Assembly: GCA_943329845.2 (NCBI GenBank)
Contig: CALQFM020000006.1
Location: 1-64,000 of the forward strand
Length of the DNA stretch: 64,000 nt
DNA from: Candidatus Kuenenia stuttgartensis
GTDB lineage: Bacteria; Pseudomonadota; Alphaproteobacteria; SMXS01
Direction: 5' to 3'
The translations under genes and the position numbers were made by a program. Every line of letters begins with the position of its first letter. The first letter of the stretch is position 1. The notes under the pieces were generated by a model. The model searched no databases. It worked only from the letters and a program-made list of their open reading frames with translations, and was not told the origin of the DNA. Positions 39,762 to 55,665 of this stretch are shown one piece after another.

Positions 39762-40849
39762 TCCGCGTCGAACACCTGTCGAAACGCTTCGGCGACCTGG
39801 TCGTTCTCGCCGACATCAATGTGGAGATCGCCAAGGGCGAGGTGGTCTCGGTCATCGGGCCGTCCGGCACCGGCAAGAGCACCTTCCTGCGTTGCCTGAA
39901 CCTGCTGGATCAGCCCAGCGGCGGCGCCATATGGATCGACGACGAGGATATCCTGGCGCCGAAGGCCAACGTCGCCGGGGTGCGCCAGAAGATGAACATG
40001 GTGTTCCAGCAGTTCAACCTGTTCGCTCACCTGTCGGTGCTCGACAATTTGACGCTGGCGCCGGTCAAGCTGAAGGGCGAGGACAAGAATGCGGCCGAAC
40101 GCCGGGCGCTCGACCTGCTGCGGCTCGTCGGCCTGGGCGAGAAGGCATACGCCTTCCCCGACGAGCTTTCCGGCGGCCAGAAGCAGCGCGTCGCCATCGC
40201 CCGCTGCCTGGCCATGGAGCCGGAAGTCATCCTGTTCGACGAGCCCACCTCGGCGCTCGATCCCACCATGGTCTCCGAGGTGCTGTCGGTGATCCGGCGC
40301 CTTGCCAAGGAAGGCATGACCATGGTGATCGTCACCCACGAGATGGATTTCGCCCGGGACGTGTCGAACCGGGTGTTCTACATGGACGAGGGGCTGATCT
40401 ACGAGCAGGGACCGCCGTCGCAGATATTCGACAATCCTCAGCGCGAGAAGACCTCGGCGTTCATCAACCGCATCCGCAGCTATGCGTCCGAGATCACGTC
40501 GCCTGACTTCGACCTTTATGCACTCAACGCCGAAATCGAGGCATTCTGCGAGAAGCACCTCGTGCCCCGCGAGGCGCGGGGGAACCTCATGCTGCTGGTC
40601 GAGGAGGTGCTGCAGCTCCACAAGCCGTGGCTCAAGCAAGGCACGCTCGACCTGACGGTCTCCTATTCGGAGAAGAACGGCCAACTCGAACTGGACTGCG
40701 AATGCAGCGGTGACGCCGGCAACCAGCTCAACCCCGACGAAGGCGAGGATGGTCTCGAGGCCATGATCATCCAGGCGCAGTGCGAGCGGATCGACTACCG
40801 GCTGGTGGACGGCAGGAGCCGGCTGGAATTTCTCGTGAAGAAGGACTGA
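39758..40849 (+). CDS. amino-acid ABC transporter ATPase with extra C-terminal domain
   Basis: A 363-residue protein. Residues 1-245 are a standard polar-amino-acid ATPase: Walker [10 protein letters not shown] at about 34-42, Q-loop V-F-Q-Q-F-N-L-F, signature L-S-G-G-Q-K-Q-R, Walker B V-I-L-F-D-E-P and the switch His in V-T-H-E-M. Normal members end near 245. Here about 115 residues follow, and their pattern resembles the ATP-binding fold of anti-sigma kinases: L-L-V-E-E-V-L-Q-L, then [12 protein letters not shown], then G-L-E-A-M-I-I-Q-A. The N-box Asn is not seen, so ATP binding by this part is doubtful. It forms a two-gene operon with the fused permease. Confidence 0.92.
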
Positions 40850-40941
40850 GTTAGCCGCCGGATTGTCGTGGTGCGACCTCGATTTTGGTCAATTAACGTG
40901 CAGCGGCGGCCTCGCGGCGCAGTCCCGCCCGACTGGATGGT

Positions 40942-41805
40942 TCATCCCTTTTCCCAGCCCAGCACCGTTCGCACGGTGCGGCCCATGAGCCAGCTCTTCT
41001 CGTCGGCGCTGAGGTCCGGGCTGTCGCGGATGTAGTGCACTAGTTCGCCCCAGGTCTCGCCGGTCTGGTTGCCGCCGTGGTCGCTGGCCCACATGACCCG
41101 GTTGGCGCCGAAGGCGTCGATCGCCCGGCGCAGATAGGGCCGCAGACCGATGGACGGGTAGTCGCGCATGCCGAACATGCCCTGGGCGTGGCTCCATTTC
41201 AGCGCCACGTTGGGATGAACCGCCAGCTTCAGCACCTCGTCGAAATACGCGACGTCCGGGCCGCTGTGCTGCTGGTCCGGCGTCGCCGCGTCGAGGAAGC
41301 TGATGTTCGCCTCCATGGGCATGCCGCAATGGTCGACGATGAACTGGAGCCGGGGGAACTGCGCCAGATAGCGCGGCATCAGCTCCACATGTCCGGCGAT
41401 GAACAGGAATACGGGCATCCCGATCCGCTCGGCCAGCGTGAAAATCGGGTCGTAGGCGCCGGACGCGAATGCCTCCAGCTCCGCGGCGGTCAGCGCCGGC
41501 AGCATGCGGATGGCGCGGCAATGGGGGGCATCCTTCGCCATGCGCACGAGGCTTTCCGCCTCCGGGTCGAGCCGGTCGATGCGCAGCACATAGGAAAACC
41601 GGTCGGGATGCAGCCAGGCCGCAAGTTCGGCGGTGGGGCTGGTCACCCGGTAGGCGCCGTTCGGCAGGGTACAGCCGGGCCCCCAATTGTCGAGGCCCCA
41701 GAACTCGTCGGCCAGCACCGCGTCAACGCCCACCGCGTCCATGGCGGCGAGCGTCTTGTCGATGCCGCCTGGGCCGAAATGAATCTGCGAGTCCACGATC
41801 TCCAT
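40942..41805 (-). CDS. amidohydrolase family protein (amidohydro-rel, ACMSD-like)
   Basis: A 287-residue metal-dependent hydrolase or decarboxylase with a TIM barrel. It starts M-E-I-V-D-S-Q-I-H-F-G, where only one His of the usual H-x-H remains. I-V-D-H-C-G-M-P supplies a later metal His and W-A-S-D-H-G-G the catalytic Asp. Many such proteins act late in aromatic degradation as decarboxylases or lactone hydrolases. It is the last gene of the minus-strand Rieske operon, and its ATG overlaps the stop of the SnoaL-like gene (TGATG). Confidence 0.87.
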   Translation of the reverse strand: MEIVDSQIHFGPGGIDKTLAAMDAVGVDAVLADEFWGLDNWGPGCTLPNGAYRVTSPTAELAAWLHPDRFSYVLRIDRLDPEAESLVRMAKDAPHCRAIRMLPALTAAELEAFASGAYDPIFTLAERIGMPVFLFIAGHVELMPRYLAQFPRLQFIVDHCGMPMEANISFLDAATPDQQHSGPDVAYFDEVLKLAVHPNVALKWSHAQGMFGMRDYPSIGLRPYLRRAIDAFGANRVMWASDHGGNQTGETWGELVHYIRDSPDLSADEKSWLMGRTVRTVLGWEKG

Positions 41806-42368
41806 CAGCGCCCCAACAGCTTCGAGACGACAGCGAAGGACGGGTCGGAGTCGTCCCATTTGCCCAGCGCCTGGGACGGGCTGCGCGACAGGCCGCCATC
41901 GGTGTAGGGCAGGTCCTGGATCCAGTCGTAGAGCCCGGTGCGCCAGGCGATGCGCCAGCCCGGTCCGCGTTTCTCGAACCGGTCGATGTAGCGGCCGCCG
42001 ACCATGGAGACGTAACGCTCGCCGGGGCGGGCGTAGTAGAGGCCGTTGGTGTTCAGGCCGGGCGGATAGTCCGCCGGCACCACGTGATAGCCAATCAGGT
42101 AGGTCTCGACCCGGGCGCTGTCGCCGTCCAGGTTGATCAGGATATTGGAGACCGTGTGGTGGCACGGGCCCAGCGGATCGACGATGGACCGGGCCGCCTT
42201 GACGAAATCCCGCCAGTCGCCGCCGATGTCGCCGAAGCCGTAGCGGGCATCATCGTGGAACACATGGTCCATCAGTTCCCAGCGCCGCCGGTCTAGGGCG
42301 TGGCAGTAGAGGTTGATGATCCGTGTGATGTCGGATTCGGCCTCGAGGCGGGCGATGGTTTCCATCAC
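41805..42368 (-). CDS. SnoaL/NTF2-like protein
   Basis: A 187-residue cytoplasmic protein with the NTF2-like pattern: D-I-T-R-I-I-N-L-Y-C-H-A-L-D-R-R-R-W-E-L, then H-T-V-S-N-I-L-I-N-L-D-G-D and G-R-Y-I-D-R-F-E-K-R-G-P-G-W-R-I. A C-terminal tail of about 30 residues follows. It lies third in the Rieske operon, 4 bp after the SDR and overlapping the amidohydrolase by one base, which makes co-translation likely. Small proteins of this fold can resemble the beta subunit of ring-hydroxylating dioxygenases, but position and size here do not prove that. Confidence 0.85.
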   Translation of the reverse strand: MMETIARLEAESDITRIINLYCHALDRRRWELMDHVFHDDARYGFGDIGGDWRDFVKAARSIVDPLGPCHHTVSNILINLDGDSARVETYLIGYHVVPADYPPGLNTNGLYYARPGERYVSMVGGRYIDRFEKRGPGWRIAWRTGLYDWIQDLPYTDGGLSRSPSQALGKWDDSDPSFAVVSKLLGR

Positions 42369-42372
42369 CAGG

Positions 42373-43065
42373 TCACCACGGGTGCTCGTCGCCGGTCCAT
42401 TTCAGCCATTTGCCGTTGTCCGCCGGGGTCAGACCGATGATCAGCTTGAGCACATCGGCGGCTGCGTCGGGCGGATCCAGGTCGGCGACCGCCCCGGCCA
42501 TTTCGGTGCGGATCCAGCCTGGATGGACCAGGGTCACGGTCACGCCCTGGTCCTTCAGCTCCTGCGCCAGGCCGGTCATCAGCCGGTTCAGTCCGGCCTT
42601 GGCGCTGGCATAGGAATAGCCGATCACATGGTCGTAGGCCGCCGCCGCCGTCTGGCTGGTCATGGTCGCGATGGTCTTGCGCCGGCTCGCCAGCACGTTG
42701 GGCAGGAACGCCTGGCAGACGCGGAACGGTCCCATGGCCATGATGTTGAACTCGTACGCCCAGTTGTCGTAGTCCATGTTCTGGAAGGTCTGGGTGTCGA
42801 GGCCGCCCCACACGCCGGCATTGTTGATCAGGATGTCGATGGGCTTGCCCGCCAGTTCAGCGGCGCAGGCTTTCACCGACTCCCCGTCGCCCACGTCCAT
42901 GCGGTGGACGGTGACCTTGCCGCCCGACGCGGCGGCCACCTTGGTCAGCGCGTCGGCCTTCTCGGGATTGCGGGTGGTGGCGTAGACGCGATGTCCTGCC
43001 TCGCCGGCCTGTTTCGCCAGCTCGTAGCCCAGCCCGCGGGCCGCGCCCGTGATCAGAATGTCCAT
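42373..43065 (-). CDS. classical SDR oxidoreductase
   Basis: A 230-residue NAD(P)-dependent dehydrogenase. It has cofactor motif T-G-A-A-R-G-L-G, the N-N-A-G step in I-N-N-A-G-V-W, and the catalytic pair in Y-A-S-A-K. An Arg after strand two (A-T-T-R-N) suggests NADP. The ending G-K-W-L-K-W-T-G replaces the usual D-G-G finish. It is second in the operon, 31 bp after the Rieske gene, and probably oxidises or reduces the product of that oxygenase. Confidence 0.92.
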   Translation of the reverse strand: MDILITGAARGLGYELAKQAGEAGHRVYATTRNPEKADALTKVAAASGGKVTVHRMDVGDGESVKACAAELAGKPIDILINNAGVWGGLDTQTFQNMDYDNWAYEFNIMAMGPFRVCQAFLPNVLASRRKTIATMTSQTAAAAYDHVIGYSYASAKAGLNRLMTGLAQELKDQGVTVTLVHPGWIRTEMAGAVADLDPPDAAADVLKLIIGLTPADNGKWLKWTGDEHPW

Positions 43066-43096
43066 GATGTCTCCCCGTGGTCGTCGCGGGCTCGGT

Positions 43097-44479
43097 TCAG
43101 CGGCCCAGATATTTCTCGAGCGTCCGGTGCATGTGCCGGATGCGGATTTCCTGGTAGTTGGCCAGCGTAGCGCCCCGACGCCCGCTGGTCATGGCGCCTT
43201 CCTGCGCCGCCTCCATGTTGCCGGTGTCCTGGTCGTAGATGTGGCCGATATAGGGGTCCATGCCCGGGACCGTCTCGTAGGAGACCTCCGACCTGATGCG
43301 CACCGGCACGGCGGTTTCGAATGGTTCGCCGTTGCGCGGCTTCGGCTTCAGGATGATCAGGTCGAACAGGGACTTGTCGTGCTGCATGCCCAGCGGCCGG
43401 AAGCGGTAGACGATGGGAAACGACACGCCCGAGAAGAACTGCTGGTTCGGGAACACGAAATAGGCGATCGAATCGACAATCTCGCTGTCGCAGACGCTGG
43501 ACAGGTCGGTGCCGCCCTGCGCAGCGACCATGTCGCGGTAATACTGGGCCATCACCTTGCGCGCCGTGCCGCCTTCCGGCACCAGCAGCTTGCTGTCCAC
43601 GTCCGACCGGTCGCCGATCAGGAAGCAGTCGAGAATCTCCTGCTCGGAAATCGGTTCCTCGAGGAAGGCGCTGGGCGAGCCGGCGACGTTGATCAACCGG
43701 TTCACATTGTCGCCGTAGAAGTCGTACTGGGTGTTGGCGTCGCCGCTCGCGCGCATCAGCTGGCTGTGGGTCTCCATGACATGATAGGCCTCGAGGAACG
43801 CTTCCGAGGCGATCTTCCAGTTGCAGTTCAGTTCCTTCTGCACATGCATGGCCACGTAGCGGTCCTCGAACACGGCGCTGTCGATGTGTTCGGGCAGCGG
43901 ATGCATGTAGTCGCGCAGTGGCGGCGCGTCCGGATCAAGGTTGACGAACACGAACCCGCCCCAGGTGTCGACCCGCACCTGACCGAGCCCGAATTCGGCA
44001 GGATCCACATGCGGGAAGTCCCATTCGCAGGGGAACGAGGCGAGGTTGCCTTCCAGGTCCCAGGTCCAGCCGTGATAGGGGCAGCGGATCTGGCTGCCGC
44101 TGCCCTCGCTGTAGGACGGCTTCAGCTTGGTGCCGCGGTGGGTGCAGGCGTTGCGGAAGGCCTTGATGGCGCCGGTGTCGGTGCGCTGCACGATCACCGA
44201 GTATGGGCCGAAATCATAGACGATGTAGTCGCCCGGCTCGGGGATGTGCTCCTCGCGGCAGGCCCATTGCCACACTTTCGGCCACAGCAGCTTCAGTTCC
44301 TGCTGGAAATAGTCGGCTGAGGTGTAGCGCTCGAAGGGGATGTCGTCGTCGCCCAGGAATTCGTAGGATTCGGTCGTCAGGTACGGGGGCGCCGTGCGGC
44401 TGTCCTGGCGCAGCAGATCCTGCACGCTGATGCCGGGGCACCGCGCCTTGCCTGGCTTCAGATCGGTCATACGGTTCAT
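43097..44479 (-). CDS. Rieske ring-hydroxylating oxygenase, alpha subunit (first copy)
   Basis: A 460-residue oxygenase. The Rieske 2Fe-2S site is C-T-H-R-G with C-P-Y-H-G-W-T-W 17 residues on. The mononuclear iron ligands lie in E-A-Y-H-V-M-E-T-H (two His), with Glu at the position that is Asp in naphthalene dioxygenase. The start is the ATG at 44479. It heads a four-gene operon (Rieske, SDR, SnoaL-like, amidohydrolase). No beta subunit, ferredoxin or reductase gene lies near, so electron donors must be shared. The protein closely resembles the second Rieske protein at 54254: both have L-G-D-x-D-I-P-F-E-R-Y-T-S and W-A-C-R-E-E-H-I-P-E-P-G-D-Y. The promoter carries the TetR-type palindrome. 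Confidence 0.94.
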   Translation of the reverse strand: MNRMTDLKPGKARCPGISVQDLLRQDSRTAPPYLTTESYEFLGDDDIPFERYTSADYFQQELKLLWPKVWQWACREEHIPEPGDYIVYDFGPYSVIVQRTDTGAIKAFRNACTHRGTKLKPSYSEGSGSQIRCPYHGWTWDLEGNLASFPCEWDFPHVDPAEFGLGQVRVDTWGGFVFVNLDPDAPPLRDYMHPLPEHIDSAVFEDRYVAMHVQKELNCNWKIASEAFLEAYHVMETHSQLMRASGDANTQYDFYGDNVNRLINVAGSPSAFLEEPISEQEILDCFLIGDRSDVDSKLLVPEGGTARKVMAQYYRDMVAAQGGTDLSSVCDSEIVDSIAYFVFPNQQFFSGVSFPIVYRFRPLGMQHDKSLFDLIILKPKPRNGEPFETAVPVRIRSEVSYETVPGMDPYIGHIYDQDTGNMEAAQEGAMTSGRRGATLANYQEIRIRHMHRTLEKYLGR

Positions 44480-44513
44480 GTCTGCCGGTCTCCCAACTCC
44501 CCAAGACCCTTTG

Positions 44514-44550
44514 TTATTCAACAGTCGTGTAATATAAGACGGATTGTCAA
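44514..44550 (-). promoter_or_regulatory. TetR-type operator and -35-like box of the Rieske operon
   Basis: Read on the minus strand: TTGACA (44550-44545), 12 bases, then TTACACG-ACTGT-TGAATAA (44532-44514). The right half and the central ACTGT are the same as in the operator before the SDR gene at 45498, apart from one base. The left half is degenerate. The distance from TTGACA to the dyad (18 bases start to start) equals that at 45437. Confidence 0.6.
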
Positions 44551-44674
44551 CCCTGATCGCGGAACGGCCGCTGCATTGCCCGTCCCGGAGCCTGGCCCCG
44601 TCCGATGGCAATCATAACAGGCATGACCCGGAAAGGCATGGGATTGAGCCGGCGCAACGCACCACCGTGCAAAT

Positions 44675-44695
44675 CCTTGTTCAATTATGACAAGG
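44675..44695 (+). promoter_or_regulatory. candidate autoregulatory operator of the tetR-like gene
   Basis: CCTTGT and ACAAGG pair across 9 bases, 48 bp before the regulator start. Inside is the half-site TTGTTCA (44677-44683) shared with the other operators; the second half reads TGACAA, one A short of TGAACAA. This fits autoregulation with weaker binding. Confidence 0.42.
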
Positions 44696-44743
44696 AATCG
44701 GTGACAAGATGACCAATAAGAGAATTCTGGAGGAACCAGTCGC

Positions 44744-45391
44744 ATGCCCATAGTCGTCGATCACGATGAGCGCCGGCATTACATTGCCCGCGTCGTGGAG
44801 CGCGTGATCGCCAAGCAGGGGATGGATGCCGTCACGATCCGGAACGTGGCGCGCGAGGCCGGCTTCCGGTCGACGCTGATCTCGCATTACTTCAAGGACA
44901 AGAAGGACATGCTGACCTTCACCCTGGACTCCATCCGGTCCCGGGCGGCGATCCGTGTCGACAAGGAGTTCCTGGACAAGCACGACCTGGCGGCCTGCCT
45001 GGAAACACTGCTCGCCACCAACGAGGACGAGTTGTCCGACTGGCAGGCGTGGTTCGGGTTCTGGGAGAAGGCGACCTTCGATCCCGAGCTCTCCGCCGTG
45101 CGGCTCGGCGTGGTCGAGGCCACCCACAATACCATCCGGCACCTGCTGGAACGGGCCAGAGACACGGGAGAACTGCCGAAGACGCTCGATTGCGAATTCC
45201 ATGCCCGCCGCCTGCAGATCATCATGAACGGCCTGGCCGCCCATGTGGTGATGAAGCCGAGCGACTGGCCGGCCGACGCGCAGCGCGGGCTGCTGAAGGT
45301 CGAGATCGAGTTCATGAAGAAGATGCCCAAGCCGCCGCCGGGCACCACGCTGCCCGACTTCCACGTACCGGCGTTCGCCTACACCCGCTGA
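44744..45391 (+). CDS. TetR/AcrR family transcriptional regulator
   Basis: A 215-residue DNA-binding protein. The N-terminal helix-turn-helix (about residues 12-56) reads V-I-A-K-Q-G-M-D-A-V-T-I-R-N-V-A-R-E-A-G, then the recognition helix with H-Y-F-K-D-K-K-D. The C-terminal part, with W-Q-A-W-F-G-F-W-E-K-A, resembles the ligand domain of BetI-like members. It probably represses the Rieske operon, the SDR and the TonB receptor through the palindrome TTRTTCA-N5-TGAACAA and is released by a pathway compound. The ATG at 44744 follows GGAGGAA. No other regulator gene lies in cluster C. Confidence 0.9.
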   Translation: MPIVVDHDERRHYIARVVERVIAKQGMDAVTIRNVAREAGFRSTLISHYFKDKKDMLTFTLDSIRSRAAIRVDKEFLDKHDLAACLETLLATNEDELSDWQAWFGFWEKATFDPELSAVRLGVVEATHNTIRHLLERARDTGELPKTLDCEFHARRLQIIMNGLAAHVVMKPSDWPADAQRGLLKVEIEFMKKMPKPPPGTTLPDFHVPAFAYTR

Positions 45392-45436
45392 TCCCGCCGA
45401 TCGCCGCCCGTCGAGGCGAAGGGGCCCAAATTCCCG

Positions 45437-45473
45437 TTGACAGCGTTTTGAGTGTTATTCAACTGTTGAACAA
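45437..45473 (+). promoter_or_regulatory. TetR-type operator and -35-like box of the SDR gene
   Basis: TTGACA at 45437-45442 is followed at 45455-45473 by the dyad TTATTCA-ACTGT-TGAACAA, whose core TTCAACTGTTGAA (45458-45470) is a perfect palindrome. Outer CGTTTTG (45444) and CAAAACG (45474) add a second pair. It lies 24 bp before the SDR start and overlaps the expected promoter, as repressor sites do. Confidence 0.65.
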
Positions 45474-45497
45474 CAAAACGCTGAAATGGGGAATTCG

Positions 45498-46256
45498 ATG
45501 AACGGAAAGCTTCTCGAGAACAAGATCGCCATCGTCACCGGCGGCGGCAGCGGCATCGGCAAGTCCGCGGCCATTGCCATGGCCCGCGAGGGCGCGACCA
45601 TCGTCATCGGCAACCGATCGGCCGAACAGGGCGAGGAAACCTGCCAGGTCATCGCCAAGGCCGGCGGCAAGGCCATCTTCCACCGCACCGATTGCGGCAA
45701 GCCCGAGGATTGCGAGGCGCTGGTCGCCCGCGCCGAGAAGGAATTCGGCCGCCTGGACCTCGCGTTCAACAACGCCGGCAAGTTCCACGACGTTCTGGCG
45801 CCGGTGCACGAGATGCCGATCGATGAATTCTCCAACGGCATCGACCTCAATTTGAAGGGCGTCTTCTACTGCATGAAGTATGAGCTGGCGGCCATGCTGC
45901 GGGCCGGCGGCGGCGCGGTCGTCAACAACGCCTCGATCTTCGGCATCAAGGGCATGCCCACGCTGAACTGGTACACCGCCGCCAAGCACGGGATCATCGG
46001 CCTCACCCAGGCGGCGGGCCTGGAATATGCCGAGCGCAACATCCGCATCAACGCGGTCGCCCCCGGCATGACCAAGACCCCGGCCCTGGACATCTCCACC
46101 GGCGGCAACGACGAGGCCTTCGCGGGCGTGGTGCCGATGAAACGCATCGCCCGGTCGGAGGAAATCGCCGAGGGCGTGGTGTTCCTGCTGTCCGACCGCG
46201 CCAGCTACATGACCGGCGCGGTGCTCAACATCGACGGCGGCATGATCGCCGCCTGA
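45498..46256 (+). CDS. classical SDR oxidoreductase
   Basis: A 252-residue NAD(P)-dependent dehydrogenase. Cofactor motif T-G-G-G-S-G-I-G, N-N-A-G-K step, catalytic Ser in N-A-S-I-F-G and Y-T-A-A-K pair are intact, and the finish is L-N-I-D-G-G. I use the ATG at 45498 after GGGGAA; an in-frame ATG at 45486 would add four residues. It is controlled by its own operator and followed, after a second operator, by the TonB receptor. A role in oxidising a hydroxylated ring compound fits the neighbours. Confidence 0.92.
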   Translation: MNGKLLENKIAIVTGGGSGIGKSAAIAMAREGATIVIGNRSAEQGEETCQVIAKAGGKAIFHRTDCGKPEDCEALVARAEKEFGRLDLAFNNAGKFHDVLAPVHEMPIDEFSNGIDLNLKGVFYCMKYELAAMLRAGGGAVVNNASIFGIKGMPTLNWYTAAKHGIIGLTQAAGLEYAERNIRINAVAPGMTKTPALDISTGGNDEAFAGVVPMKRIARSEEIAEGVVFLLSDRASYMTGAVLNIDGGMIAA

Positions 46257-46298
46257 CGTCGTTTCGGGTGAGCTGATCCGGGGACGCGAGCTAGCAGC

Positions 46299-46319
46299 GG
46301 CGGCGTCTCCGGAGCCGCC
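46299..46319 (+). terminator. possible stem-loop between SDR and TonB receptor genes
   Basis: GGCGGC and GCCGCC pair across nine bases that include the palindrome TCCGGA. No T-run follows. It could end the SDR transcript before the next promoter (TTGACA at 46329), which would make the receptor a separate unit. Confidence 0.35.
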
Positions 46320-46328
46320 AAATTCGAA

Positions 46329-46366
46329 TTGACAGGCGGTTTTTATTTTGTTCACCTGATGAACAA
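46329..46366 (+). promoter_or_regulatory. TetR-type operator and -35-like box of the TonB receptor gene
   Basis: TTGACA at 46329-46334 and the dyad TTGTTCA-CCTGA-TGAACAA at 46348-46366 repeat the arrangement seen at 45437 with one extra base between them. The site lies 23 bp before the receptor start. Confidence 0.65.
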
Positions 46367-46389
46367 TAAAGATACCCGGGGAGGATATC

Positions 46390-48852
46390 ATGGACATTCG
46401 CCGAACAATTCTGTCCGCGATCGGCGCCGGATGTCTGGCGCTCGCGGCCATCGTGCCACCGGCTTCCGCCCAGGAACCGGCCGCCGCCGCACCCGCCGCA
46501 CCACAGGCTGATCCAGCCGCGGCGCCTGGCCGCAAGGGCGGCCTGGAGACGGTCATGGTCACCGCCCGCAAGCAGGAGGAATCCGCCCAGGACGTCCCGG
46601 TCGCCGTCAGCGTCTACACGCCCGAGCAGATCGAGCGCTACAACATGACGTCGCTGGAAAGGATCGCCGCCTCCACGCCCCAGCTGGTGATCGGCCGCGG
46701 CGGCAACGGCTCGGGCGCGCAGCTCACCCTGCGCGGCATCGGCTCGATCCCGACGTCGATCGGCGTCGAGCAGTCGGTCGCCGTGGTCCTCGACGGCGTC
46801 TATTACGGCCAGGGCCGCACCATCAACGAATCCATGTTCGACGTGTCGCGGATCGAGGTACTGAAGGGCCCGCAGTCGCTGTTCTTCGGCAAGAACGCCA
46901 CGGCCGGCGTGATCTCGATCACCAGCAACGATCCGACCGACGAGTTCGAGGCCATGGCCCGCGTCGGCTTCGAGGCGCGGTCGCAGAACCTGATCACCGA
47001 GGGCTTCGTATCCGGCCCGCTGTCCGACAAGGTCAGCGCCCGGCTCGCGGTGCGGATCGGCGAGATGTTCGGCGGCTATTTCCACAACCGGGGCTTCGAC
47101 GTCACCAACTACACCTTCGACGCGGCCACCTTCAATCTCTACGCGCACGACGCGCCGAAGCTGGACCGCGACCTGCCCGGCACCAGCGAGAAATTCCTGC
47201 GCGGTACCATCAAGTTCACGCCCACCGATGCGCTGACCATCACCCTGAAGGGCAGCTTCATGCGCACGGTGGACGAGGCGAACGCCTGGAACTACGTGCC
47301 GTTCGCTTGTCCCTCGGGGTTCGTGTCGGTCAGTCCCACGGTTCCCTGCAAGCGCGACTTCAGCGCCTACATCAACTATTTCCCCGACGACATCGCCGGC
47401 AACATCCCCTATGGCCGCGACGACGGCTCGCCGTTCAACGCCTACCAGTCGTTCGCCATCACCGGCAACATCACCTACGAGGCGGACGCGTTCTCGGTCA
47501 CCTCGATCACCAACTACCAGCGCAACCGCAACAACTGGGGCTGCGAGTGCCAGAACGTGTCGACCTCCGCCTCGTTCATCTCGGCCACCGAGCTGTCGAT
47601 CTGGGAAGCGTTCTCCAACGAGACCCGGTTCCAGACCAGCTTCGACGGACCGTTCAATTTCCTGGTCGGCTTCCTCTACCAGAACACCAAGCGCGACCAT
47701 GACCAGGCCGGACAGTTCGGCGGCGTCGAGGACTCCAGCCAGCCGATCGAGACGCGCTATGTCGCCTACGACAAGTCGTCGATCACCGACGGCGAGACCA
47801 TAGCCGGCTTCGCCCAGGGCAAGCTGTCGCTGTTCGACGGCCTCGAGCTGGCGGGCGGCGTGCGCTACACGCACGAGACCAAGAAGAGCTTCCTGGAGAT
47901 GACCTACGTCAACGTGCTGTTGCAGGGTCTCTTCCCGGAGAACGCGCCGATCCTGGGCGACCAGACCTTCAACGACTGGTCGCCGGAAGCCACCGTCACC
48001 TACCGGGTCAACGAGGACGTGACCGTCTACGGCGCGTTCAAGACCGCCTACAAGTCGGGCGGCTTCTCCAACAGCGCGCTGGTCTCGATCAACACCATTC
48101 CCGACGACGTGGCGTTCGATCCGGAAACCGTGCTGGGCTTCGAGGGCGGCATCAAGACCATGCTGTTCGACCGCCAGCTGCGGCTCAACCTGGCGCTCTA
48201 CAGCTTCAAGTACAAGAACCTGCAGGTCGACTACTACAACTCCATCACCTTCCAGTTCATCACCACCAACGCCGGCTCGGCGCGCACCAAGGGCTTCGAA
48301 CTGGAGGCCGAATACGCGCCCAACGGCGTCGACGGCCTGACCTTCCACGGCACCTTCAACTACAACCGCGCCCGCTATCTCCAATACGTGGCGCCGTGCT
48401 ATGGCGGCCAGCCGATCTCGGAAGGCTGCACCACCGTGTTCCAGGACGGTCCGGGGCAGGACCTCAGCGGCAAGCCGACGGCGGTCGCGCCCAAGATCAC
48501 CGCGTCGATGGGCTTCAACTACGAGGTGCCGGTGGGCAGCGACTGGATGTTCGGCGTCTCGGCCGACGCCCGATACAGCAGCTCCTATTTCGGCTCCAGC
48601 TTCGCCGCGCCGCTGTCGCTGCAGCCGTCCTACGTCAACCTGGACGCCGCGCTGCGGTTCTTCTCGAACGACGACACCTGGGAGTTCGCCATCATCGGCC
48701 GCAACCTGACCAACCACTTCTACTTCGGCGGCGTGCAGGACATGCCCAACACCGGCGTCGGCACCGGCACCGCCGGCGGCATTCCGGCCGACCAGCTGGC
48801 GCTCGCCTCGCTGCCGCGGACCGTCCAGTTCCAGGTGACCTGGCGGTACTGA
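46390..48852 (+). CDS. TonB-dependent outer-membrane receptor
   Basis: An 820-residue receptor for energised uptake across the outer membrane. A signal peptide (residues 1-27, ends A-S-A-Q) is followed by an Ala/Pro-rich spacer. The plug domain covers about 52-165, with a TonB-box-like V-M-V-T-A-R-K and then Q-D-V-P-V-A-V-S-V-Y and I-E-V-L-K-G-P-Q-S-L. A 22-strand barrel ends at the aromatic residue Tyr820 (V-T-W-R-Y). Sphingomonads use large numbers of such receptors for hydrophobic or complex substrates, and control by the catabolic TetR site suggests that this one takes up the pathway substrate. No siderophore genes are near. Confidence 0.95.
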   Translation: MDIRRTILSAIGAGCLALAAIVPPASAQEPAAAAPAAPQADPAAAPGRKGGLETVMVTARKQEESAQDVPVAVSVYTPEQIERYNMTSLERIAASTPQLVIGRGGNGSGAQLTLRGIGSIPTSIGVEQSVAVVLDGVYYGQGRTINESMFDVSRIEVLKGPQSLFFGKNATAGVISITSNDPTDEFEAMARVGFEARSQNLITEGFVSGPLSDKVSARLAVRIGEMFGGYFHNRGFDVTNYTFDAATFNLYAHDAPKLDRDLPGTSEKFLRGTIKFTPTDALTITLKGSFMRTVDEANAWNYVPFACPSGFVSVSPTVPCKRDFSAYINYFPDDIAGNIPYGRDDGSPFNAYQSFAITGNITYEADAFSVTSITNYQRNRNNWGCECQNVSTSASFISATELSIWEAFSNETRFQTSFDGPFNFLVGFLYQNTKRDHDQAGQFGGVEDSSQPIETRYVAYDKSSITDGETIAGFAQGKLSLFDGLELAGGVRYTHETKKSFLEMTYVNVLLQGLFPENAPILGDQTFNDWSPEATVTYRVNEDVTVYGAFKTAYKSGGFSNSALVSINTIPDDVAFDPETVLGFEGGIKTMLFDRQLRLNLALYSFKYKNLQVDYYNSITFQFITTNAGSARTKGFELEAEYAPNGVDGLTFHGTFNYNRARYLQYVAPCYGGQPISEGCTTVFQDGPGQDLSGKPTAVAPKITASMGFNYEVPVGSDWMFGVSADARYSSSYFGSSFAAPLSLQPSYVNLDAALRFFSNDDTWEFAIIGRNLTNHFYFGGVQDMPNTGVGTGTAGGIPADQLALASLPRTVQFQVTWRY

Positions 48853-48881
48853 GCGACACACAGGATTTTGCCTGCGATAGT

Positions 48882-48917
48882 GTTGGCCGGCCGGACGCCA
48901 TGGTCCGGCCGGCCAAC
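48882..48917. terminator. perfect 15-bp hairpin between receptor and FMN-enzyme genes
   Basis: GTTGGCCGGCCGGAC (48882-48896) and its exact complement (48903-48917) flank a 6-base loop. The stem is very GC-rich and begins 30 bp after the receptor stop. No T-run follows, so it may be a transcription terminator of the non-classical kind or an RNA-stability element between co-transcribed genes. Confidence 0.6.
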
Positions 48918-48935
48918 TGATTCCTGGGGAGGACC

Positions 48936-50069
48936 ATGGACAAGATCGCCACCATCGCCGACTTGCGCGACGAAGCCCGCCGCAAGCTGCCCGCGCCGAT
49001 CTTCGATTTCGTCGACGGCGCCGCCTTCAGCGAGGTGACCCTGCGCGCCAACGTGCAGGACTTCGAGAAGATCCGCTTCCGCCAGCGGGTGGTGAAGGAC
49101 GTCTCGGTCCGCTCGCTCTCGACCGAACTGGTCGGCCAGCCCTGTGCGATTCCGGCGGCGATCTCGCCCACCGGGCTGAGCGGCATGCTGTGGGGCGGCA
49201 ATGGCGAGATCGCCGCCGCCCGCGCAGCCAAGGCGTTCGGCATTCCGTTCACCCTGGGCATGATGTCGGTCTCGACCCTGGAGGAAGTGACCAAAGCCGT
49301 CGGCCCGGTCTGGTTCCAGATGTGCATGCTGAAGGACCGGGGCCTGGTGCAGGACTTCGTCGACCGGGCGAAGGCCGCCGGATCGCCGGTGCTGATCCTC
49401 ACCGTCACCTGGGTTGTCTCGGGCCTGCAAAGCCGCATGACCCGCCACGGCGTCGACCTGCCGCCGCCGCTCACCCCCAGCTTCATCGCCAAGTTCGCCA
49501 CAAGGCCCATGTGGGTGTGGCGCGCGCTCCGGGGCAAGCCAGTGGCGTTCCACAACTTCACCGGCCGGATGAAGGAAGAGGCGACCATTCCGGCGGTCAT
49601 CGGCCAGCTCGATTCCTCCGTCACCTGGAAGGACATCGAGTGGCTGCGCTCGATCTGGCCGGGCAAGCTGATCATCAAGGGCGTCTGCGACCGCGAGGAC
49701 GCGCGCCTCGCCATGGACGCCGGCGCCGACGCGGTCAGCGTATCCAATCACGGGGGCAACCATCTGGACAGCTCGGCCTCGACCATCTCCATGCTGCCCG
49801 ACGTGGTCGAGGGCGTCGCCGGCCGCGGCGAGGTGCTGCTCGACGGCGGCGTACGCTCGGGCCAGGACATCCTGAAAGCCATGGCGCTGGGCGCGAAAGG
49901 CGTGCTGCTGGGCCGCGCCCATCTCTATGGGTTAGGCGCCGCGGGGCAGAAGGGCGTCGCCAAGGCGCTCGACATCCTGAAGTATGAGCTGGACGTGTCC
50001 GTGGGCCTCACCGGCCTCACCGACGTCCGCCAGGCATCGCCGGAGATATTGTTCAAGCCGAGGGATTAA
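48936..50069 (+). CDS. FMN-dependent alpha-hydroxyacid oxidase/dehydrogenase family, altered active site
   Basis: A 377-residue FMN TIM-barrel protein related overall to LldD: F-D-F-V-D-G-A-A, A-I-S-P-T-G-L, I-I-K-G-V, S-N-H-G-G and L-L-D-G-G-V-R-S-G. The flavin-side Lys (I-K-G) and the catalytic His (N-H-G-G) are present. Using spinach glycolate oxidase numbering, however, Tyr24 is Phe, Tyr129 is Cys (F-Q-M-C), Asp157 is Thr (L-T-V-T), Arg164 is Leu and Arg257 is Asn (H-G-G-N). Both carboxylate-binding arginines are thus lost. The mycofactocin enzyme MftD also has H-G-G-N, as far as I recall. The substrate is therefore probably not a simple 2-hydroxyacid. It may be co-transcribed with the receptor. 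Confidence 0.88.
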   Translation: MDKIATIADLRDEARRKLPAPIFDFVDGAAFSEVTLRANVQDFEKIRFRQRVVKDVSVRSLSTELVGQPCAIPAAISPTGLSGMLWGGNGEIAAARAAKAFGIPFTLGMMSVSTLEEVTKAVGPVWFQMCMLKDRGLVQDFVDRAKAAGSPVLILTVTWVVSGLQSRMTRHGVDLPPPLTPSFIAKFATRPMWVWRALRGKPVAFHNFTGRMKEEATIPAVIGQLDSSVTWKDIEWLRSIWPGKLIIKGVCDREDARLAMDAGADAVSVSNHGGNHLDSSASTISMLPDVVEGVAGRGEVLLDGGVRSGQDILKAMALGAKGVLLGRAHLYGLGAAGQKGVAKALDILKYELDVSVGLTGLTDVRQASPEILFKPRD

Positions 50070-50479
50070 GCTCTCATCGACATCGCGGAGGATACGTGGC
50101 GAGCCAGTCCGGATACGGAGGAGCAACCCTATCCGCATGGAGTATGTTTGGGCGATCGTAGTTCGCAAACCCATGCGCGGACGTCGGCTAGGGATGGAAA
50201 GCGGTCTATCCGCTTGCAAGCCAGGAAGTGAGAGATCGGACATTCGGCCAAAGACCGGGTCTGGCCGTTTGCAGACCGACAGGGTTCTGACGGGGAATGT
50301 GCAATATCCGACGTCCAGCACCTGAGTATATTCCGACCCTGCGGGGTGCCCCGGACCTGGCCTATCTTGTTTTCCCTCCGCCATCCCGAAGCTTGGTGAG
50401 CGCGCCCCACCCGTAGCGCAATTATCATATTGTCCCTGTCGACCTGTCGGTTGGCAGGTTGATCGTCGAGGACAAAAAC
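50070..50479. other. 410-bp gene-free stretch before the cytochrome block
   Basis: No convincing gene is seen; short frames on both strands lack ribosome sites and family features. Composition shifts here from strongly GC-rich to more mixed sequence. Near 50450 ACCTG and CAGGT form a small dyad just before the peroxidase gene. This could be a junction of acquired DNA. Confidence 0.45.
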
Positions 50480-51646
50480 ATGACCAACCCGTCACTCCAT
50501 GTCACAGGCCTTGCCGGTTTGCGCCGTGATCCGCGCCTGATCGTGAACGGCAGGTCCATATTTTTGGCGGCAAGCCTCTGCATGCTGGCTGCGGCCTGTG
50601 ACAGGGCGCCGGAGGCGGGCAATGGCTCGACCGAGTCCGCCGCCGTTGCTGCACCGGAGATGAGCGCCTCAACCGATCCGCTCATACTTCAGGCCCGGGA
50701 GGTCTTCAAACCCATTCCGATTAAGGCGCCCGACTTGCCAGGCAACCCAGCCACGGAGGACAAGGTCGCACTTGGCGAGATGCTTTATTTCGAGCCACGA
50801 CTTTCAGCGACCCATTCGATCAGTTGTGCGACCTGCCACAATATCGGTTTGGGCGGCGCCGATAATTCCCCAATGTCGGCTGGCTTCCATGGAACCCGTG
50901 GCGCAAGGAACTCGCCAACGGTCTTCAATTCGGTCTTCAACTTCGTTCAATTCTGGGATGGCCGGGCAAAGGACCTGGAAGAACAGGCCGGCGGCCCGAT
51001 GGTCAACCCGGTTGAAATGGCGTCTCCGAAGCAGCATATCGCATCCCAACTGGCGGCGCTGCCCCAATATCGCACCGAATTCGCACGGGCATTTCCGGGC
51101 GAAGGCGCTCCGCTTTCCTTGGACAATGCACAAAAGGCCTTAGCGGTATTCGAGGCGACACTCATCACGCCGAACGCGCCTTTCGATCGTTTTTTGCGGG
51201 GTGATCCGGCGGCTCTGGATGCGACCCAAAAAGCCGGCCTGACCCTGTTTATGAACAAGGGCTGCACCGCATGCCACTCCGGGGTAAATATTGGCGGATC
51301 CATGTACGCCAAGTTCGGCTTGGTCGCAGCGCCGGATGCCAAATATCTCCCTGCCGGCGACAAGGGGCGCGGGGCGATAACAGGCGACGCCGCCGACGAC
51401 TATTTCTTCAAGGTCCCCACTCTGCGAAATATTGCGCTGACCGCACCCTATTTCCATACCGGTTCAGAGCAGGATCTGGCGAAGGTCGTCAACGTCATGG
51501 CGACGGCGCAGCTGGGACAGACCCTGAGCCAGCCCGAGACGGCCCAACTGGTGGCCTTTCTCGCGGCGCTGACGGGCGATCAACCCAGAATCGTGCAGCC
51601 GCAATTGCCCACGAGCGATGCCAATTCGCCTCTGCCTGACAAATAG
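50480..51646 (+). CDS. di-haem cytochrome c peroxidase (CcpA/MauG superfamily)
   Basis: A 388-residue periplasmic protein. The N-terminal hydrophobic stretch ends L-A-A-A-C-D, which may be a lipoprotein box (Cys near residue 40) or a cleaved signal. Two haem-binding motifs are present, C-A-T-C-H and C-T-A-C-H, spaced as in bacterial di-haem peroxidases. Conserved F-F-K-V-P-T-L-R-N-I and P-Y-F-H-T-G surround the second haem. It reduces hydrogen peroxide with electrons from small cytochromes. The ATG at 50480 has GAGG before it. Codon use and GC are visibly lower than in the catabolic genes. The next gene, a cytochrome b561, may pass electrons to it. Confidence 0.92.
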   Translation: MTNPSLHVTGLAGLRRDPRLIVNGRSIFLAASLCMLAAACDRAPEAGNGSTESAAVAAPEMSASTDPLILQAREVFKPIPIKAPDLPGNPATEDKVALGEMLYFEPRLSATHSISCATCHNIGLGGADNSPMSAGFHGTRGARNSPTVFNSVFNFVQFWDGRAKDLEEQAGGPMVNPVEMASPKQHIASQLAALPQYRTEFARAFPGEGAPLSLDNAQKALAVFEATLITPNAPFDRFLRGDPAALDATQKAGLTLFMNKGCTACHSGVNIGGSMYAKFGLVAAPDAKYLPAGDKGRGAITGDAADDYFFKVPTLRNIALTAPYFHTGSEQDLAKVVNVMATAQLGQTLSQPETAQLVAFLAALTGDQPRIVQPQLPTSDANSPLPDK

Positions 51647-51860
51647 AAATGATCAGTCGAATAACACACGCGCCGGGGCGCTGTGCCCGATGAGCCAGAT
51701 CTACGGTGCATTCGGCCACCGCGATCCTGATCGCCATTCCTGCGGCGTCTGAGAGAGCTCCAACGTCCACGCAGGATACCGGCCTTGGGCATTTTGATGT
51801 GAAACAATGCACTCCTGGCCGTGGTGAATAATATCCAGTGCCAAGGGGAAGAGGTTCGCT

Positions 51861-52409
51861 ATGAATTCAGCCGTTCTTCGTCAGCGTTTCGCCGCTGTTT
51901 CGATGGCCCTACACTGGGTCATGGTGCTGCTGGTTGCCGCAGTTTACGCGTGCATCCTGCTGCGTGGAAACTATCCCAAGGGAAGCGACCTGCGCGAAGG
52001 CCTGAAAACCTGGCATTTCATGCTTGGTCTTTCGGTCCTGGCGCTTGTTATCATCCGGGTCGTCGCACGTCTGATGAGCGCCAAGCCGCCGATTACGCCA
52101 GCGCCTCCTGCATGGCAAATGCTGTTCGCCAAGGTGGTGCATATTGCGCTCTACGGATTCATGCTGGCGATGCCGATCGCGGGTTGGATCATCCTGAGCG
52201 CCTCGGGCAAAGTCGTTCCCTTCTTCGGGCTCGAATTCCCCGCGCTTGTTGGCCAAAGCAAGGATATCGCGAAGCAAGTGCAGGAGGTGCACGAGACGGT
52301 CGGCACGATCGGCTACTTTCTGATCGGCCTGCATGCCATTGCCGCGCTTTTCCACCACTACATTGTCAAGGACGATACGCTGCGGCGGATGTTGCCGGGC
52401 GGGCACTGA
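51861..52409 (+). CDS. cytochrome b561
   Basis: A 182-residue inner-membrane cytochrome with four helices. The likely haem ligands are His in A-L-H-W-V, T-W-H-F, V-V-H-I-A-L-Y and the C-terminal L-H-A-I-A-A-L-F-H-H. The motif M-L-A-M-P-I-A-G-W-I is standard for bacterial b561. It moves electrons between quinol or another donor and periplasmic acceptors, possibly the neighbouring peroxidase. GGGAAGAGG precedes the start. Its stop overlaps the following broken gene as TGATG. Confidence 0.93.
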   Translation: MNSAVLRQRFAAVSMALHWVMVLLVAAVYACILLRGNYPKGSDLREGLKTWHFMLGLSVLALVIIRVVARLMSAKPPITPAPPAWQMLFAKVVHIALYGFMLAMPIAGWIILSASGKVVPFFGLEFPALVGQSKDIAKQVQEVHETVGTIGYFLIGLHAIAALFHHYIVKDDTLRRMLPGGH

Positions 52410-52698
52410 TGTCGGCAGGCACATCGCACAGTCTTCTGAGCCGCGAGGTTTCGCCCGTCTACGCGTCGCTGCTGGCGTTGATTGGCGTAGCGCGCTTGCT
52501 TGATGCCCTCTTGCACCTAGTTGGCGCGGTCTGGATTGGGCGCTATCTGGGCATCCCCGGCAGCATCCTGATCATGGCCTCGACCCGATATTCCCTGCGT
52601 AAGCGCAAAATCATCAGTCGGAAAAGCCGGCCAGGCTGCTCAAGGAGCAGCAATGGCTGACCTGGCTTCGATCCCCTCGCCGTCCGTTGGGTAGCTGA
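52409..52698 (+). pseudogene. frameshifted, truncated membrane-protein remnant
   Basis: The frame opens at the ATG at 52409, translationally coupled to b561, and encodes S-L-L-A-L-I-G-V-A-R-L-L-D-A-L plus a second hydrophobic helix and Y-S-L-R-K-R-K-I-I-S. It then runs into a Ser/Arg-rich tail and stops at 52660. In another frame the sequence continues from about 52619 as S-E-K-P-A-R-L-L-K-E-Q-Q-W-L-T-W-L and stops at 52698. This looks like the same gene after a frameshift, cut off before its later helices. From memory it resembles haem-type membrane proteins with H-E-W-L-T-W-x-G-S-L after R-K-R-K-I-I. The next gene starts 3 bp later. Confidence 0.5.
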
Positions 52699-52701
52699 GC
52701 C

Positions 52702-53943
52702 GTGATCGCGGGCCCGTGGATCAACTTTGCCATCGCCATTGGGGTCGGGCTGATGATCGGGCTGGAGCGCGAACGGTCGAAAGGTGTTGGCTCGACCCGC
52801 CGCCCGGCTGGCATCCGGACATTCACACTCGCGGCGCTGATGGGAGCAGTCGCTTACCATCTCGGCGGTATTCCGCTTCTGATGATTGCAACCGCCGGCG
52901 TCATGGGGCTCACAGCCCTGTCCTATGCAGGGAGACGCGATGACGATCCGGGCCTTACGACCGAAATCGGCTTGATCGCGACACCGCTACTTGGCGGCCT
53001 CGCGATGTTGGACACTGGCCTCGCTGCCGGGCTGGGCGCCGCAATTGCGGTTATCTTCGCGGTGAAGGAGGCGCTGCATGGCTTCGTGATGCGCGTCCTG
53101 ACCGGAGCTGAAGTCACGGACGGCCTCATCTTTGCGGTCGCCACCCTGGTCATCTGGCCACAGCTCCCTGATCGCTACTTGGGGCCTCTTGAGGCGTTGA
53201 ACCCGCACAGCATCTGGTTCCTTGTCATCCTTGTGATGGCGCTTGGGGGATGCGGGCATCTCGCGACACGGGCGCTCGGAGCCCGCTTCGGGCTGCCCGT
53301 CGCCGGCCTTGCATCCGGCTTCGTCTCCAGCACGGCAACAATCGGATCAATGGCAGGCCAAGCGGCCAAGAACCCGGCGAGCATAACGGCGGCGGTTGCG
53401 GGAGCCATATTTTCGACAGTTGCAACCTTTGTTCAGCTTGGCCTGTTGCTCGTGATGGTCAGCCGCGCGACCCTAGTCCTAATGGCGCCAGCCCTGGGGG
53501 CAGGCGCACTCACCGCGACCCTGTATGGACTCGTCTTTGCGCTGCGCGCGGTGAAGCCAGAGGGTGGGGCTGACAGCGCACCGGGACGTGCGTTCAGCGT
53601 TGGCACCGCCCTCGGTCTCGCGGCGATGATGGCCGTCATGTTGGTGATTTCCGCGGCGTTGAGAAACTGGCTCGGGGAAGCCGGTGTCGCCGTAGGGGCA
53701 GTTGTCGCCGGCTTCGTCGACACTCATGCCGCAGCAATATCAGTCGCATCCTTGGTTGCAGCAGCGAAGATGACTCCGCAGGAGGCGGTATTGCCGATCC
53801 TGGCGGCGATGACGAGCAACGCAGCGGCAAAGATTACGATGGCAATTGGCGCCGGCTCGCGTGGTTTTGCGCTAAGGGTAACGCCGGGATTGATCGTGCC
53901 CGTCGCGGCAGCTTGGGTTGTCGCATTGCCAACGGCGTTCTGA
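52702..53943 (+). CDS. MgtC/SapB-DUF4010 membrane protein
   Basis: A 413-residue membrane protein starting with GTG at 52702. The N-terminal third is MgtC-like: G-V-G-L-M-I-G-L-E-R-E-R, then G-I-R-T-F-T-L-A-A-L-M-G-A. The rest matches DUF4010 with about eight helices, including S-G-F-V-S-S-T-A-T-I and A-I-T/I-S-V-A-S-L. The family is conserved but without a proven transport substrate. It may be expressed with the cytochrome genes or from its own promoter inside the remnant. Its composition matches the peroxidase block rather than the catabolic genes. Confidence 0.88.
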   Translation: MIAGPWINFAIAIGVGLMIGLERERSKGVGSTRRPAGIRTFTLAALMGAVAYHLGGIPLLMIATAGVMGLTALSYAGRRDDDPGLTTEIGLIATPLLGGLAMLDTGLAAGLGAAIAVIFAVKEALHGFVMRVLTGAEVTDGLIFAVATLVIWPQLPDRYLGPLEALNPHSIWFLVILVMALGGCGHLATRALGARFGLPVAGLASGFVSSTATIGSMAGQAAKNPASITAAVAGAIFSTVATFVQLGLLLVMVSRATLVLMAPALGAGALTATLYGLVFALRAVKPEGGADSAPGRAFSVGTALGLAAMMAVMLVISAALRNWLGEAGVAVGAVVAGFVDTHAAAISVASLVAAAKMTPQEAVLPILAAMTSNAAAKITMAIGAGSRGFALRVTPGLIVPVAAAWVVALPTAF

Positions 53944-54253
53944 TGATCGGAATCGATTCTGTAGCGCGGGCCGCACATGCACGGCACGACCTATGGCGCT
54001 CTCTGCGACGTTAGCCCGTTGCTCGGCTCCCGAAGCGACCTGAGCACTGCCGAAGAATCGATTGCAGACGTCACGGCAATCGACCGATTCTAGCTTCGTT
54101 GATGAACGTCGGCTATGGGTTGGAAGCAGGCTCCTGCCGAGCAAGAGGCATGAGGGTGCATAGTCACTCATATTCGAGCATTGCGCGAACAACTCGATTG
54201 CCGCGTGGCTGCGCTCCTCGCAACGACGGAGTCGGGCGGGGCGCTGACGGCCC
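53944..54253. other. 310-bp gene-free stretch with repeat-like sequence
   Basis: No real gene is seen between the MgtC-like gene and the second Rieske gene; both end into this region. It contains several near-palindromic pieces (for example gaatcgatt at 53949 and 54053) and a REP-like unit at 54196-54229. The mixed composition and lack of open frames look like decayed or repeat-derived DNA. Confidence 0.4.
54196..54229. repeat. REP-like intergenic repeat unit
   Basis: The sequence opens gattgccgcg and runs on to gctcctcgcaacgacgg. It resembles, on the opposite strand, a short repeat with cgt-x-att-gcgaggagcgcagc common in alphaproteobacterial intergenic DNA. Only one copy was noticed in the window, so its status as a dispersed repeat rests on recall. 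Confidence 0.35.
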
Positions 54254-55633
54254 TCAGTCGTCCAGATACTTGTCCAGCGTCTGGTGCATCAGCCTGACAC
54301 GGACCTCCTGGTAGTTCAGCAGGGTCTCGCCCTTCTTGCGCGCCGCGCGCATGCCTTCCTGCTGGGCACGGAGGTTGTTGGTGTCCTGGTCGTAGACGTG
54401 GCCGAGGATCGGGTCGAAGCCGGGCACGGTGGTGAAGCTGTCTGCCTCGGTCAGCCGGTACGGCGCGGCGGGCTCGGGGCACGGGCCGTTTTCCGGCATG
54501 GGCCGCAGGATCAACAGCTCGAACAGGGTGCGGTGCGGGTCGTCGCCGATGGGCCGGAAGCGGTAGACCATGGGCAGTGACAGCTGCGGGAACAGGATCA
54601 TGTTGGGGAAGATGCCGTATTGCGACACGTCGACCATCTCGGTGTCGGTGTAGCGGCCGAGGTCGACGCCATACGCTTCGCCGAGAGTCTGCCGCAGCAC
54701 CCGCGCCATCACCATGCGCGCCGTCTCGCCTTCGCCCACGGTCATGGCGTCGCCCAGGATGGTGCGGTCGCCGACCAGCATGTCGTCGATCAGCTGCTGC
54801 TCGGTCGGGCGCGGCTCGATCAGCTGGCTCGGGATGCCGAAGGCGCAGAAGAAGCGCGAGACGTTATCGGTGAACACGTCGTACTGGGTGCCCTCGTCGT
54901 CGGCGCCCAGCAGCAGCTGCGGATGGGTTTCCTGGGTGTGGTAGTTCTCGACGAAGGCTTCCTTGCCGGCCTTCCAGTTGCAGTACAGCTCCTTCTCGAT
55001 ATGCAGCTCGACGAAGCGGCGTTCCATGTCGAAATTGGCGAAGTGCTCGGGCACCGGCGCGATGTAGTCCACCAGCGGCGCGGCGTCCGGATCAAAGTTC
55101 ACGAACACGAAGCCGCCCCACAGGCCGATGCTCACCCGCGGCATGGTGAAGTCGCGCTCCATCACGTGCGGCGCGTCCCAGCCATAGGGCACCCGCTGCA
55201 GTTCGCCGGCCAGCGACCAGGTCCAGCCGTGGAACGGGCAGCGCAGCGCCGTCACGCTGCCCGACATGCCGCCGAGCGCGAACTTGGTGCCGCGGTGCAT
55301 GCAGGAATTGACGAAGCCGGCGACCGATCCGTCCTCCTGCCGCACGATCAGCGCCGAATGGCGGCCAACCTCGTAGACGTAGTAGTCGCCCGGCTCGGGG
55401 ATGTGCTCCTCGCGGCACGCCCATTGCCAGGCGCGCGGCCACATGCGCTCCATCTCGCGGTCGAAGAAAGCCTGGCTGGTGTAGCGCTCGAACGGGATGT
55501 CCTCGTCGCCGAGGAAGCGCGGGCTTTCAAGCTCGAACACGGCGGGCACCGGCCGGCCGTCGCGGTGCACCAGCGCCTGCATGGAGGGCGTCGCGCGGCC
55601 CCTGGTCAGCGACTTCAGGACGTCATCGTTCAT
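54254..55633 (-). CDS. Rieske ring-hydroxylating oxygenase, alpha subunit (second copy)
   Basis: A 459-residue oxygenase. The Rieske site is C-M-H-R-G with C-P-F-H-G-W-T-W 17 residues on, and the iron site is E-N-Y-H-T-Q-E-T-H. It is a clear paralogue of the protein at 43097, sharing the N-terminal L-G-D-E-D-I-P-F-E-R-Y and the C-terminal G-H-V-Y-D-Q-D-T and L-N-Y-Q-E-V-R-V-R. Differences in the central region (residues about 255-340) suggest another substrate. The ATG at 55633 gives the family length. Like its paralogue it diverges from an SDR gene, here across a 28-bp palindrome. No electron-transfer partner genes are near. Confidence 0.94.
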   Translation of the reverse strand: MNDDVLKSLTRGRATPSMQALVHRDGRPVPAVFELESPRFLGDEDIPFERYTSQAFFDREMERMWPRAWQWACREEHIPEPGDYYVYEVGRHSALIVRQEDGSVAGFVNSCMHRGTKFALGGMSGSVTALRCPFHGWTWSLAGELQRVPYGWDAPHVMERDFTMPRVSIGLWGGFVFVNFDPDAAPLVDYIAPVPEHFANFDMERRFVELHIEKELYCNWKAGKEAFVENYHTQETHPQLLLGADDEGTQYDVFTDNVSRFFCAFGIPSQLIEPRPTEQQLIDDMLVGDRTILGDAMTVGEGETARMVMARVLRQTLGEAYGVDLGRYTDTEMVDVSQYGIFPNMILFPQLSLPMVYRFRPIGDDPHRTLFELLILRPMPENGPCPEPAAPYRLTEADSFTTVPGFDPILGHVYDQDTNNLRAQQEGMRAARKKGETLLNYQEVRVRLMHQTLDKYLDD

Positions 55634-55665
55634 CTGCGTCTTCCCCGTATTCAAGGGAAGTATAT

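Follow-up and report, generated by a model that had tools for sequence, protein, structure and literature searches.

The window, by which we mean the whole 64,000-nucleotide stretch of DNA that was analysed (G000:C6:1-64000), comes from a 3.68-Mb genome (G000) and carries a cluster in which a gene for a TetR-family regulator lies between a leftward four-gene operon, headed by a Rieske oxygenase alpha subunit gene, and rightward genes for an SDR dehydrogenase (SDR1), a TonB-dependent outer-membrane receptor and an FMN-dependent 2-hydroxyacid dehydrogenase (Table 1). NCBIfam gives no substrate-specific name for any of the cluster enzymes, and the solved 3-phenylpropionate/biphenyl dioxygenases are no more than distant relatives of the Rieske protein; the compound that the cluster takes up and oxidises is probably ring-shaped. 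The alphaproteobacterial genus to which the cluster belongs is apparently uncultured, and Rieske oxygenases number in the dozens in its genomes. G000 has 58 matches to Ring_hydroxyl_A (the Rieske oxygenase alpha domain) in its 3.68 Mb, and first-look candidates number 41 in G003 and 52 in G005, both congeners, and 62 in the distant genome G096; in most of the alphaproteobacterial genomes sampled the number is zero or about 1-10.

Table 1. Genes, putative promoter elements and other features of the cluster (window coordinates)
Feature	Position	Strand	Remarks
Amidohydrolase-2 family hydrolase gene	40942-41805	-	fourth gene of the minus operon; overlaps SnoaL gene
SnoaL_4/NTF2-like protein gene	41805-42368	-	third gene of the minus operon; 4-bp gap
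SDR2 gene	42373-43065	-	second gene of the minus operon; 31-bp gap
Rieske oxygenase alpha subunit gene	43097-44479	-	first gene of the minus operon; Pfam Rieske, Ring_hydroxyl_A
Operator 3, Rieske operon promoter	44514-44532	-	TTACACGACTGTTGAATAA; right half perfect, left degenerate
TTGACA, putative -35 of Rieske operon promoter	44545-44550	-	exact hexamer; kept in 5 genomes
TetR-family regulator gene, proposed repressor	44744-45391	+	215 aa; TetR_N and BetI-type C-terminal domain
Outer stem around operator 1	45429-45495	+	45429-45438 pairs with 45485-45495; operator in loop
TTGACA, putative -35 of SDR promoter	45437-45442	+	invariant in 5 genomes
Operator 1, SDR promoter	45455-45473	+	TTATTCAACTGTTGAACAA, conserved flank CAAA to 45477; exact pattern match, top-scoring site genome-wide
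SDR1 dehydrogenase gene	45498-46256	+	own operator upstream
TTGACA, putative -35 of TonB receptor promoter	46329-46334	+	exact hexamer
Operator 2, TonB receptor promoter	46348-46366	+	TTGTTCACCTGATGAACAA, flank TAAA; exact pattern match
TonB-dependent outer-membrane receptor gene	46390-48852	+	own operator upstream
GC-rich hairpin, 15 bp, between TonB receptor and FMN dehydrogenase genes	48882-48917	+	kept in G002, G005; without T-run
FMN-dependent 2-hydroxyacid dehydrogenase gene	48936-50069	+	without own site; regulon membership uncertain
Candidate weak fourth operator	55669-55687		TTATTGCACAATTGCACAA; between second Rieske gene (-) and SDR gene (+)

The regulator matches the Pfam families TetR_N (PF00440; 38.3 bits against a cut-off of 24, E=1.2e-9, residues 20-57) and TetR_C_6 (PF13977; 62 bits, E=7.7e-17), its AlphaFold model has nine helices (pLDDT 87.9), and the best PDB match found for that model by Foldseek is the TetR structure 2nx4 (E 9e-10). 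PF13977 is the type of C-terminal domain present in BetI, the choline-responsive TetR repressor, but the protein scores only 55.4 bits against the curated TIGR03384 equivalog cut-off of 201.3, by which it is not BetI, and no choline or betaine genes are seen beside it.

An earlier note on this DNA had described TTGACA followed 18-19 bases later by a dyad before the Rieske operon, the SDR gene and the TonB receptor gene. The SDR and TonB promoters indeed carry exact copies of a 19-bp palindrome with the consensus TTRTTCA-N5-TGAAYAA, and at the Rieske site one half, GTTGAATAA, is perfect and the other, TTACACGA, is degenerate. The spacing is correct as a start-to-start distance (18, 19 and 18 bp for the SDR, TonB and Rieske promoters, respectively) but the gap between the two elements, so counted, is 12-13 nt; across the sites read from five genomes the start-to-start distance stays at 17-19 bp. 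The window has only 10 copies of TTGACA, counted on both strands, and the pairing of this hexamer with all three dyads would arise by chance with a probability of about 1e-11. No TATAAT-like -10 hexamer lies 16-18 bp after TTGACA at any of the three promoters, which would therefore be weak or unusual and may be activated. The degenerate dyad that the note had also placed before the tetR gene (at about 44681) did not hold up: its score is that of background, the sequence survives in G002 and G004 but not in G005 and G006, and nothing in the tetR upstream region (44560-44743) rises above background (best score -0.8, rank 69; the real sites score 28-37). The site was rejected on these grounds, and autoregulation of tetR through a dyad is not supported; such autoregulation is common in local catabolic TetR systems and is not strictly one of their defining features.

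Orthologues of the regulator, 80-93% identical and set in the same gene order as in G000, are present in four congeners (G002, G004, G005 and G006), and in all five genomes tetR is embedded between the regulated units. Fourteen sites could be read in these genomes, and a site is kept wherever the sequence exists: operators 1 and 3 in all five, and operator 2 in the four with a readable TonB promoter, since the G004 contig stops short of it. In the intergenic alignments TTGACA and the dyad stand out as conserved islands amid diverged DNA, with 23/28, 28/30 and 28/29 columns invariant inside the boxes versus 51/236, 9/76 and 19/104 outside them (Fisher p 4e-10 to 4e-15; five genomes, four at the TonB promoter), though all sites come from one genus and the comparisons are not fully independent. 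The helix-turn-helix residues (32-53) are identical in the five orthologues, and among the genomes searched the orthologue is confined to the five that bear the sites. The dyad tracks it, being absent from two congeners and two more distant relatives that lack it. The congeners, G001 and G003, have just 38-39% identical TetR paralogues, whose recognition helix is different (GFRSTLISHYF versus GYSTAIVSHYF); the relatives, G007 and G008, have a Rieske gene (72-74% identical) followed by SDR2, without a TetR neighbour. Nor is the same dyad found near the paralogous TetR genes on C4, C8 and C19 or those in G001 and G003.

Within the 3.68-Mb genome, only the SDR and TonB sites match the pattern of the earlier note, TTRTTCA-N5-TGAACAA, with 0-1 mismatch, and with up to two mismatches to the 19-bp consensus only the three cluster sites are found; in the regulator-less genomes the consensus has scattered one- or two-mismatch matches. 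A 23-bp profile, trained on the cluster sites themselves, was run over ten genomes with 150 first-look candidates scored per genome, a limit that weaker sites could escape. Among the candidates scored, full sites (E<0.003) occur solely in the cluster, three per TetR-bearing genome and two in G004, and the remaining matches either read a site on its reverse strand or are noise, with E no better than 0.13; noise of this kind is all that the candidates from G001, G003 and G007-G009 contain. The additional sites for which the note had proposed a genome scan were thus not found at the level of full sites, and a loose search for TTGACA plus a half-site gave noise only. When each promoter was left out in turn, the held-out site was the best remaining place in the window, and a profile built from the SDR and TonB sites alone gives the Rieske site the top rank in the window once the training sites are set aside. 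Genome-wide, the latter profile finds the Rieske site as the best untrained site in four of the five genomes, at a weak E of 0.07-0.39. The cross-promoter test works genome-wide in this direction only, because a profile from the SDR and Rieske sites fails to recover the TonB site of G000 at E<=10 and recovers that site only in G006.

These observations argue well for a shared local TetR regulon over three promoters, those of the four-gene Rieske operon, SDR1 and the TonB receptor. It is likely that the local TetR protein is a ligand-released repressor that binds the 19-bp palindrome at these neighbouring promoters. The sequence itself shows the three sites, their conservation and their uniqueness in the genome, the conserved promoter spacing, the TetR fold and the co-occurrence of site and regulator; the role of the adjacent TetR as the binding protein, its repressing action, its release by a compound of the pathway and the kind of substrate are inferred. 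The centre of the dyad is 27-28 bp downstream of the start of TTGACA in all three promoters, so that, if TTGACA is the -35 element, a bound TetR dimer would cover the -10 region and the start site and block RNA polymerase, and repression by such occlusion is the most likely mode of action. The compound or an early metabolite would then bind the regulator, which would leave the DNA, and joint induction would follow for uptake (the TonB receptor), oxygenation and hydrolysis (the Rieske/SDR2/SnoaL/amidohydrolase operon) and dehydrogenation (SDR1). Uptake and breakdown are most likely switched on jointly, because the three promoters share a tag found nowhere else in the genome.

It is distinctly unlikely that the dyads are real operators read by another regulator, a different TetR or an IclR-type protein, with the adjacent TetR controlling something else. 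G000 does hold six other related TetR-family matches, in Sphingobium the IclR repressor PheR governs TonB receptors as well as a dioxygenase operon (PMC13273656), and tetR itself has no good dyad before it; but the motif accompanies this TetR and not the paralogues of G001 and G003, the gene keeps its place between the regulated units, and the DNA-binding domain is as unvarying as most of the operator. The same protein might instead activate, or both activate and repress, promoters that lack a proper -10 box, as the missing consensus hexamer and the constant distance from TTGACA to the dyad would allow. We regard this as very unlikely, since a dyad over the expected -10 region and start site is in the position of a repressor site and TetR-family proteins are mostly repressors (PMC4424350). 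A chance likeness of AT-rich promoter DNA with no shared regulator, to which the imperfect Rieske dyad might be thought to point, is exceedingly improbable, being contradicted by the genome-wide uniqueness of the sites, their conservation in five genomes and their coincidence with TTGACA.

Compatible with the three-promoter repressor model, although unlikely, is a wider regulon with a weaker fourth operator at the candidate site listed last in Table 1. This site has the best score in the window after the three operators (14.5 versus 28-37) and is kept in G002 and G005, and the second Rieske gene and its SDR neighbour come directly downstream of the TonB gene in G006. On the other hand, three to four of its positions do not fit the consensus, and the genome profile does not pick it up at E<=10; the site also contains TTGCACAA twice, and this direct-repeat character suggests another regulator.

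The earlier note had put all the genes from 40942 to 50069 under one repressor. This is well supported for the three promoters (40942-44479, SDR1 and the TonB receptor) and is not supported for the tetR dyad; the membership of the FMN dehydrogenase gene is uncertain, because it has no site of its own, lies behind a conserved hairpin, and did not turn up at the corresponding position in G006. We note that in G005 roughly 800 bp (L049:12114-12927) are inserted between the TonB receptor and FMN dehydrogenase genes; judged by eye, the insert apparently holds an AhpD/carboxymuconolactone-decarboxylase-like gene, and a copy of the last codons of the TonB receptor gene is left beyond it.

Control of this kind is familiar, and the three-promoter regulon is a well-supported example of it. 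The actinobacterial KstR and KstR2 proteins are TetR repressors of catabolic clusters with Rieske oxygenases and are released by pathway intermediates, but theirs are large steroid regulons with other operators, and the present regulon is small, local and alphaproteobacterial. MbdR of Azoarcus sp. CIB, a TetR repressor of 3-methylbenzoate degradation, has operators over the -10 region and start site at several local promoters (PMC4424350). As with MbdR, the regulator gene lies inside a catabolic cluster and the same palindrome, over the -10 region and start (the start sites here being putative), is found at several local promoters, in this case three. The MbdR operator is ATAC-N10-GTAT rather than TTRTTCA-N5-TGAAYAA (PMC4424350), its pathway is anaerobic and CoA-based, unlike the present cluster, and it has operators in its own promoter, whereas no site before tetR is supported here. 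In Sphingobium sp. SHPJ-2 the single repressor PheR couples a ring-hydroxylating dioxygenase operon to TonB-dependent receptors (PMC13273656), the same coupling of uptake and oxygenation that we propose, but PheR is of the IclR family and is described as a wider regulator, in contrast to a TetR protein with three local promoters only. A literature search with the half-site sequence and TetR found no matching operator; the string occurs in the MbdR paper as a primer sequence (PMC4424350). The literature searched, which covered few subscription journals, yielded no description of the operator, the cluster or the genus. With one regulator, three operators and no other full site found genome-wide, the regulon is ready for experiment, and identification of the TetR ligand would point to the substrate of the cluster. 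A private regulator and operator for one cluster among many similar oxygenases suggests how substrate specificity is wired.

The junction between tetR and SDR1 differs among the five genomes. G004, G005 and G006 have an extra SDR gene between the two, with the operator before the extra gene, so that it stays at the tetR-proximal promoter. G002 retains a remnant of the extra gene that has lost its start codon; in G000 the gene is gone, and the first codons of SDR1 (MNGK) apparently derive from it, which is consistent with an in-frame deletion/fusion that retained the promoter (45486-45560; L049:7600-9210). Operator 1 is enclosed by a predicted outer stem whose right arm contains the SDR ribosome-binding site. 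Folded as RNA, the region has a z of -4.25 in G000 and of -1.0 to -1.9 in G002, G004 and G005; all 10 of 10 pairs form in these four genomes with two compensatory changes, a result that 33 of 500 shuffles equal because there are only four sequences. G006 lacks the stem, and in G002 it is the start codon behind the stem that is lost. In G000 and G004 the ribosome-binding site is computed to be less accessible in read-through than in short transcripts; G005 gives a mixed picture and G002 shows no difference. It is possible, if doubtful, that the SDR operator element both represses initiation and insulates SDR translation from tetR read-through: read-through RNA would fold the left arm onto the right and hide the ribosome-binding site, and RNA initiated from the SDR promoter itself, close to the dyad's right edge, would be missing the left arm and remain translatable. 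No close precedent for such insulation was found in the literature, and no known RNA families were found within 40000-57000.

Several related elements lie elsewhere. The candidate fourth site is enclosed by a conserved element (55666-55693, TTTTTATTGCACAATTGCACAATAAAAA) that is nearly identical in G002 and G005; this is probably another operator, perhaps one that the same TetR uses as a weak fourth site. Another TonB receptor gene is preceded by TTACACGATCGTTGAGTAA (L052:16287-16305), which is identical to the Rieske operator at 16/19 positions and partly conserved in G005; its cluster, on C19, has its own Rieske, SnoaL and divergent TetR genes. On C8 (L053:4733-4877) a gene for an FMN dehydrogenase, 57% identical to that in the window, is divergent from a TetR paralogue gene, and the short intergenic region between them contains ATGTTGTATAACAT and a 15-mer, TAATATAAGACGGAT, that is also present in the Rieske promoter.
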